Part shown: piece after piece, positions 26,618-59,435 of the stretch
Position numbering within the stretch: position 1 is the stretch's first letter
How the letters are laid out: each line of letters begins with the position of its first letter
Position numbers and translations under genes: made by a program
The notes under the pieces: model-generated
Seen by the model: the letters and a program-made list of their open reading frames with translations, nothing else
Told to the model about the DNA's origin: nothing
Database searches by the model: none
Source of the DNA: Sipunculus nudus
Lineage: Eukaryota > Annelida > Sipuncula > Golfingiida > Sipunculidae
Reading direction: 5' to 3'
Assembly (NCBI GenBank): GCA_026874595.1
Contig: CM049317.1
Span: 37,666,401-37,730,400, forward strand
Length of the DNA stretch: 64,000 bases

Positions 26618-26696
26618 ATGGATATATTTAAATGTCCCCGGTGGAGTGTGTGGCGGCTGGCTCTGGCCTGTGTACTGTGTACTGCATGGGGGAATG
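26618..26696 (+). CDS. Gene 2 exon 1: signal peptide
   Basis: Starts at ATG 26618 and ends at donor ATG/GTAAGG, in phase 1. It encodes [20 protein letters not shown] and then CTAWGN, a basic-hydrophobic signal sequence with a likely cleavage after the small residues near Ala-Trp-Gly. Confidence 0.75.

Positions 26697-59435: not shown

Follow-up and report, generated by a model that had tools for sequence, protein, structure and literature searches.

A predicted transmembrane NLR with C-type-lectin-like domains and its paralogues in the genome of Sipunculus nudus

We analyzed a stretch of 64,000 nucleotides (the window) from the 1.43-Gb genome of the annelid Sipunculus nudus (assembly GCA_026874595.1, contig CM049317.1, here C12; C12:37666401-37730400) and assembled exons from stop-to-stop reading frames and the DNA itself. 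The window contains a ten-exon gene at 26618-59435, referred to as the window gene, and part of a neighboring gene of the same layout, gene 1. Judging from its exons, the window gene encodes, with a probability of roughly 0.8, a type I transmembrane (TM) NOD-like receptor (NLR) in one chain, with a signal peptide, two tandem C-type-lectin-like domains (CTLD1 and CTLD2), one membrane span and a cytosolic part composed of pre-NACHT, NACHT and leucine-rich repeat (LRR) regions.

The ten exons join into an open frame of 1,119 amino acids that begins with ATG and ends at the stop codon 59433-59435 (Table 1). All internal borders have AG and GT, and the nine junction phases are 1,1,1,1,1,1,0,1,0: each of the five exons between the signal peptide and the TM helix is 1/1, the TM exon 1/0, the linker exon 0/1 and the pre-NACHT exon 1/0, both possible starts of the latter (56850 and 56874) being phase 1. 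With these borders, phases and frame, the ten phase-compatible exons of the original prediction were borne out together with the parts assigned to them. The ectodomain carries two N-glycosylation sequons. By established rules, the succession of signal peptide, CTLDs, stalk and TM helix, with arginines directly behind the helix, predicts type I topology, and we infer that the exons are spliced into one mRNA whose product would span the membrane in this orientation at the cell surface.

Table 1. Predicted exons of the window gene, the retroelement in its first intron, and the parts of gene 1 lying inside the window (window coordinates; LTR, long terminal repeat)
Feature	Position	Strand	Description
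Exon 1	26618..26696	+	start codon and signal peptide; donor phase 1; weakest exon, without paralogue support
Exon 2	43336..43542	+	CTLD1, first half; phase 1/1
Exon 3	45440..45550	+	CTLD1, second half; phase 1/1; weak donor GTTGGT
Exon 4	51985..52230	+	CTLD2, first half; phase 1/1
Exon 5	53605..53745	+	CTLD2, second half; phase 1/1
Exon 6	54691..54783	+	stalk with several Ser/Thr/Pro; phase 1/1; assigned by position and composition only
Exon 7	55921..56021	+	TM helix and RRR stop-transfer; phase 1/0
Exon 8	56618..56678	+	juxtamembrane linker, 20 residues; phase 0/1; weak donor GTACCC
Exon 9	56850..57079	+	pre-NACHT domain; phase 1/0; alternative start 56874
Exon 10	57345..59435	+	NACHT, NLR helical region, ribonuclease-inhibitor-type LRRs, stop codon
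LTR element	29229..36992	+	in intron 1, outside the protein; 703-bp LTRs at 29229-29931 and 36290-36992, 100% identical
Gene 1 TM exon	191..297	+	phase 1/0; same layout as the window gene
Gene 1 pre-NACHT exon	1269..1471	+	
Gene 1 NACHT-LRR open frame	4256..6430	+	exon start lies within the frame

The NACHT domain of the window gene was recognized by Pfam at 8.6e-18 (65.2 bits, cut-off 26.7) and has an intact Walker A motif, GDPGVGKT, at residue 436 of the ten-exon model. The two joined exons of CTLD2 matched Lectin_C at 1.4e-10 (42.3 bits, cut-off 22.6); the joined ectodomain exons matched this Pfam family and no immunoglobulin (Ig) family. The TM exon reaches a 19-residue hydropathy of 2.74. 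For the LRRs, Pfam gave only matches below its cut-off; the region aligns with ribonuclease-inhibitor LRRs by sequence (4.1e-4), and its strand/helix units at residues 481-696 (block means of the model confidence score, pLDDT, 59-91) are the best-confidence part of the predicted structure. This AlphaFold model, which covers the NACHT-LRR exon, was built from two window sequences and is used as support only; its mean pLDDT is 56, with a fair LRR part and a poor NACHT part. The top Foldseek matches of the low-confidence model were NLRC4, NLRP1, NLRP3 and NOD2, and in its cytosolic part the predicted protein resembles a typical NLR switch. The CTLD pair, NACHT and LRRs named in the original prediction were confirmed by Pfam for CTLD2 and NACHT and by sequence and predicted structure for the LRRs, CTLD1 falling below the cut-off. 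Having both NACHT and LRRs, the window gene is a bona fide NLR as the available text of PMC11797021 words it.

No Pfam match to a death-fold (CARD, PYD, DD) or BIR domain was found in the pre-NACHT or NACHT exons of the window gene. With no such effector domain found and CTLD-TM at its N-terminus, we do not file it as a canonical tripartite vertebrate NLR. FISNA was rejected as the identity of the pre-NACHT exon: one of 18 members matched in Pfam (0.0096), the window exon did not, and the gene 1 frame stayed below the cut-off (0.016; 15.8 against 28.1 bits). The Ca2+-dependent sugar-binding motifs of C-type lectins are EPN/QPD and WND. The full motif is absent from the four CTLD2s that were inspected by eye (EPS and WRA in the window gene, EPA and WRA in gene 1), hence 'lectin' denotes here the fold alone, and the ligand may be a protein, a lipid, or a glycan that is held by some other mode of binding.

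The CTLD exons of gene 1 lie 3.1-6.8 kb left of the window (L069); in the 20 kb examined left of this gene the order is CTLD1a, CTLD1b, CTLD2a, CTLD2b, followed by the TM exon. Gene 1 is 41% identical to the window gene across the NACHT-LRR exon, and its CTLD1 exceeds the Lectin_C cut-off (27.5 bits). A single candidate start was found for its signal peptide in 13.3 kb, with no exon established. Two further loci, L045 on C12 and L057 on C17, selected because a TM exon had already appeared there, possess CTLD1b, CTLD2a, CTLD2b, TM and pre-NACHT exons in the order of gene 1; CTLD1a was seen in neither. A NACHT frame directly follows the pre-NACHT exon in L045, and the nearest NACHT match in L057 is 26.6 kb downstream. 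In all four loci, the top-scored donors of CTLD2a and CTLD2b are phase 1 and that of the TM exon is phase 0. The TM and pre-NACHT exons each have an acceptor of phase 1 at their disposal, and the pre-NACHT exon also has a donor of phase 0, although these are not the top-scored sites in every case.

We further searched the whole genome for these exons. The match lists are lower bounds, as the search scores the best candidates only; merging left 166 CTLD2-type places (two queries), 105 pre-NACHT places (two queries) and 129 NACHT places. Of the 166 CTLD2-type exons, 39 are followed on their own strand by a pre-NACHT or NACHT match at no more than 5 kb, none is preceded by one at that distance and none has one on the opposite strand; with the limit at 10 kb, 47 are followed in this way. 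Conversely, 35 of the 105 pre-NACHT exons have a CTLD2-type exon within 5 kb upstream (none downstream or on the opposite strand) and 38 within 10 kb (three downstream, four opposite). These 38 exons are distributed over eight contigs, with 24 on C17, and 27 of them have a NACHT match within 45 kb downstream. With the first CTLD2 query alone, 45 of 137 exons were linked at 10 kb, against a mean of 0.99 and a maximum of 5 in 500 runs of a local-shift null. Other CTLD matches were represented by the 150 best-scored of 2,756 candidates, from which 57 rows belonging to dispersed near-identical frames were removed. None of the remaining 93 has a pre-NACHT or NACHT match within 20 kb; at 50 kb three have one on the opposite strand, and C12:58995869, a member of this control set, overlaps a CTLD2-type match. 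Mere abundance of both exon types on C17 was therefore rejected as an explanation of their proximity by side and strand, by the local-shift null and by the 93 other CTLDs unlinked at 20 kb. Read from the genomic sequence, the recurrence of exon order and phases in paralogues and genome-wide is beyond chance. The family would comprise about 35 or more loci, counting each pre-NACHT exon that has a CTLD2-type exon no more than 5 kb ahead of it, and some of these may be fragments.

Several local arrangements were seen in the same lists. Four tandem units at C17:54757522-54794687 are spaced 11-12 kb apart, with 2712-2716 bp between their CTLD2 and pre-NACHT exons, and are recent duplicates of the receptor unit. 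At 2-5 Mb of C17, 14 of 17 NACHT exons lie 14-38 kb downstream of pre-NACHT and the other three at 3.9-6.2 kb (nearest-match pairing); outside this region nearly all paired NACHT exons are within 4 kb, with two exceptions on C17 at 15-17 kb. On C12 (34-54 Mb and elsewhere), 51 of 58 CTLD2-type exons have no pre-NACHT or NACHT match within 45 kb downstream, and the ectodomain may there be joined to other cytosolic modules.

A recurring order of exons could also arise from two adjacent genes copied as a block: one for a membrane lectin whose coding part stops shortly behind the TM exon, the other for a cytosolic NLR whose first exon was missed. Indeed, the TM exon read into its intron meets a stop after a few residues, which would give a short-tailed lectin, and at 10 of the 30 pre-NACHT loci the open frame contains an in-frame ATG before the conserved part. 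Many CTLD2-type exons have no NACHT detected nearby, thus the ectodomain can exist without NACHT. However, the window gene, for which a separate start codon of the NACHT part had been considered from the outset, has no in-frame ATG ahead of the conserved pre-NACHT part, and the exon acceptors are phase 1. The good donor of the TM exon is phase 0, whereas the pre-NACHT exon needs a phase-1 donor, which the conserved 0/1 linker exon provides, and at 5 kb side and strand are right in 39 cases and wrong in none. We therefore regard a pair of genes as quite improbable; the order and phases in gene 1, L045 and L057, together with the count of 39 against 0 and 0, argue for the single chain of the original prediction.

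TM exons were sought over 1.5 kb upstream of each of 30 pre-NACHT exons, among them those of the window gene and gene 1. At 11 of the 30 loci one with phase 1/0 was found, compared with 0 of 30 in the antisense control and 0 of 30 in the downstream control. The other phase pairs gave 2, 5, 0, 3, 0, 0, 4 and 3 of 30, with both controls at 0; these matches are probably in part the same helices under other borders.

When four paralogues on C17 are compared, their exons for TM helix, linker and pre-NACHT align without gaps and hence without frame-breaking gaps, and the introns between them have 1 to 29 gap columns. The linker exon is conserved in all four, with the phases of the window gene. The nonsynonymous rate (dN) is below the synonymous rate (dS) in every differing pair, with dN of 0.06-0.24 and dS of 0.15-0.37 in the TM exon, 0.03-0.17 and 0.15-0.51 in the linker exon, and 0.02-0.08 and 0.07-0.28 in the pre-NACHT exon. 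Since the TM and linker figures cover 31 and 26 codons, this result is supportive and not decisive.

A number of observations weigh against a single-chain receptor gene. In the window gene, the joined CTLD1 exons match Lectin_C at 7.5e-4 (20.6 bits), below the Pfam cut-off of 22.6. The signal-peptide exon, a weak point of the model, was chosen as the best of three candidate starts in 18 kb (none on the antisense strand) on the basis of phase and sequence only, and 16.6 kb and a retroelement separate it from the next exon; the weak donors after exons 3 and 8 are further weak points. In the four-locus splice-site scan the phase-1 acceptor was sometimes outscored by other acceptors, the phase-1 donor of the window pre-NACHT exon ties with the phase-0 donor, no consensus donor was found after CTLD1b of the window gene or CTLD1a of gene 1, and the CTLD1b acceptor was not found in L045. 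Genome-wide, no CTLD2-type exon was detected in the 10 kb ahead of 67 of the 105 pre-NACHT exons, 119 of the 166 CTLD2-type exons have no pre-NACHT or NACHT detected within 10 kb downstream, and at that distance three CTLD2-type exons are on the wrong side and five on the wrong strand. The phase 1/0 TM exon was not found in the 1.5 kb scanned at 19 of 30 loci. In the more distant C17 pairs, dN of the TM exon is 0.20-0.24 against dS of 0.29-0.37 (31 codons), a ratio moderately below 1. Finally, one related locus on C3, that of L012, has a CARD in place of the CTLD when read upstream.

Two of these weak points also bear on the possibility that the layout is real in the family and the window copy is silent or decaying, so that this gene makes no receptor. 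The 7.8-kb LTR element in intron 1, which we take to be of the BEL/Pao type from the look of its proteins, is a recent insertion because both 703-bp LTRs are identical, and it could end transcripts early; the two weak donors point in the same direction. On the other hand, 1,119 codons without a stop or frameshift and the intact Walker A motif speak against it, and we consider a silent copy unlikely.

In gene 1, about 43 tandem copies of a 52-bp unit occupy window positions 1443-3685 and repeat the end of the pre-NACHT exon and its splice donor (HYxDMFTQ, then GTAAGG); CAGGTAAG occurs in this array 9 times and GTAAGG 17 times. Such a series of 5' splice sites is unusual for a gene. Besides the full-length receptor, alternative splicing or retained introns may produce a lectin that has a short tail or is soluble, and perhaps also an NLR of the cytosol, which is compatible with one gene for a membrane receptor. 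The separate phase-1 exons, the readable stop after the TM exon and the long introns speak for such multiple products, as does the donor-like array of gene 1, and we see them as possible at clearly less than even odds. Between the two NLR genes, at 11918-25366, the window holds about 13 kb of an 88-bp satellite, also with 175- and 263-bp periods.

The kinship of the NACHT domains was examined in a tree of 30 sequences, comprising 14 rows labelled as CTLD-bearing (13 by position, the window gene by its own exons), three rows of a C3 clade and 13 without a detected CTLD2-type exon. One part of 27 rows (support 100/100) holds every CTLD-labelled row and the C3 clade. The window gene, gene 1 and one further C12 row branch first within this part, and the C3 clade joins the other 21 rows with support of 87/80. 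No CTLD or TM exon was seen in about 6.4 kb upstream of the C3 locus of L012; the two remaining C3 rows are labelled by kinship only. The CARD-NACHT gene C3:10214409-10222627 (L073, L041) has a NACHT domain among the closest to that of the window gene outside C12 (36% identity) and, like the window gene, a pre-NACHT exon with a phase-1 acceptor, but it differs in having a CARD upstream and not CTLD-TM. Joined across two exons, the C3 CARD scores 3.9e-6 (27.2 bits, cut-off 23.9), the first exon alone reaching 21.2 bits. As the tree is midpoint-rooted, we read it only as CTLD-TM and CARD fronts on related NACHT modules, which have a common phase-1 border ahead of pre-NACHT. The pre-NACHT exon also occurs without a CTLD, so that pre-NACHT alone does not imply one.

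CARD and CTLD frames also occur together in a dispersed, near-identical unit, in which CARD frames of 230 and 275 amino acids lie on opposite strands about 3.4 kb apart and are accompanied by a CTLD frame of 329-441 amino acids (for example, C11:145330-167390 and C7:29985589-30010029). The 51 CARD-230 frames are spread over 16 contigs; 45 of them have a CTLD frame within 40 kb, on the other strand in 45 of 45. The unit looks like a young large mobile element or an integrated DNA virus with host-type immune domains.

For a receptor of this design we infer the following route from ligand to output. An outside ligand, either a microbial surface or a damaged-self structure, would cluster the CTLD heads, which would bring the NACHT domains together or release them from LRR restraint. 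The NACHT domains would then exchange ADP for ATP and oligomerize at the membrane. Since neither a CARD nor a death or pyrin domain was found at the N-terminus, output would depend on a partner. It would probably proceed through NACHT-NACHT contact with other NLRs, of which the genome has near kin with CARD, or through cytoskeletal or phagocytic partners, by analogy with the Ig-TM-NACHT protein AjNLRC4 of sea cucumber, for which actin-linked phagocytosis is described (PMC8699970). More speculatively, it can be proposed that membrane CTLD-NLR sensors and cytosolic CARD-NLR partners form a two-tier system, in which the former recruit the latter by NACHT-NACHT contact. Extracellular recognition would then lead directly to an inflammasome-like wheel, bypassing ITAM, Syk and Toll adaptors, and the phase-1 pre-NACHT border would be the site where ectodomain-TM and CARD modules were swapped. 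We hold this extension to be doubtful.

Animal NLRs are usually treated as cytosolic sensors. The unusual design claimed in the original prediction stands in part: membrane NLRs as such are already in print (PMC8699970, PMC12909245, in the text available) and are not new, even if the CTLD ectodomain is, and no CTLD-TM-NACHT-LRR family was found in the accessible literature searched, with subscription journals, preprints, supplements and protein databases lying beyond the search; such genes may well be annotated somewhere. Among the closest known systems is AjNLRC4 of sea cucumber, described in the available text as an Ig-TM-NACHT protein at the coelomocyte membrane that binds microbes and drives phagocytosis (PMC8699970); a follow-up paper mentions several Ig-TM-NACHT genes in this animal. 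Like the product predicted for the window gene, AjNLRC4 combines extracellular recognition domains, TM and a cytosolic NACHT in one chain without CARD, but by that text it has Ig domains and not CTLDs, lacks LRRs, has two predicted TM segments and belongs to an echinoderm. Without an Ig ectodomain, the window gene is not a member of the AjNLRC4 type; by analogy, it perhaps works like it. AjNLR-new (PMC13133943, available text) is likewise a single membrane protein that carries NACHT and TM parts together with an Ig module, but its NACHT is reported outside and its Ig inside, and it has no CTLD. Sponge NLRs with predicted TM segments are termed putative membrane-bound NLRs, with no CTLD ectodomain mentioned in the text portion available, the architecture figure and supplement aside (PMC12909245).

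Surveys of cnidarians, placozoans, ctenophores and sponges name no CTLD-NACHT chain in their available text (PMC8260672, PMC5094078, PMC6321704, PMC11797021, PMC8242945); the cnidarian survey found 35 Pfam domains with NACHT, the full list being in a supplement outside this comparison. In several molluscs NLRs were reported as scarce, with four NACHT proteins in Aplysia (PMC9334734) and no NLRs in a Mytilus transcriptome (PMC3308963), as far as the available text of these papers goes. The pearl oyster, a lophotrochozoan, is an exception: according to the available text, its NACHT genes number over 200 and are enriched in parts of a single scaffold. They differ from the window gene in the N-terminal modules named for them, often death or DZIP3/hRUL138-like HEPN domains, and the words 'lectin', 'C-type' and 'CTLD' are absent from the main text, supplements lying outside the count (PMC9646362).

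The layout suggests that this is a surface immune receptor of a type that has been little described. If true, outside recognition and an inside NACHT in one chain would constitute a further inward signal route besides lectin receptors acting through ITAMs or adaptors and Toll receptors, and would offer a clean test of whether clustering alone fires a NACHT domain. The kinship with a CARD-NLR sharing the pre-NACHT border would make module exchange at one intron directly testable.
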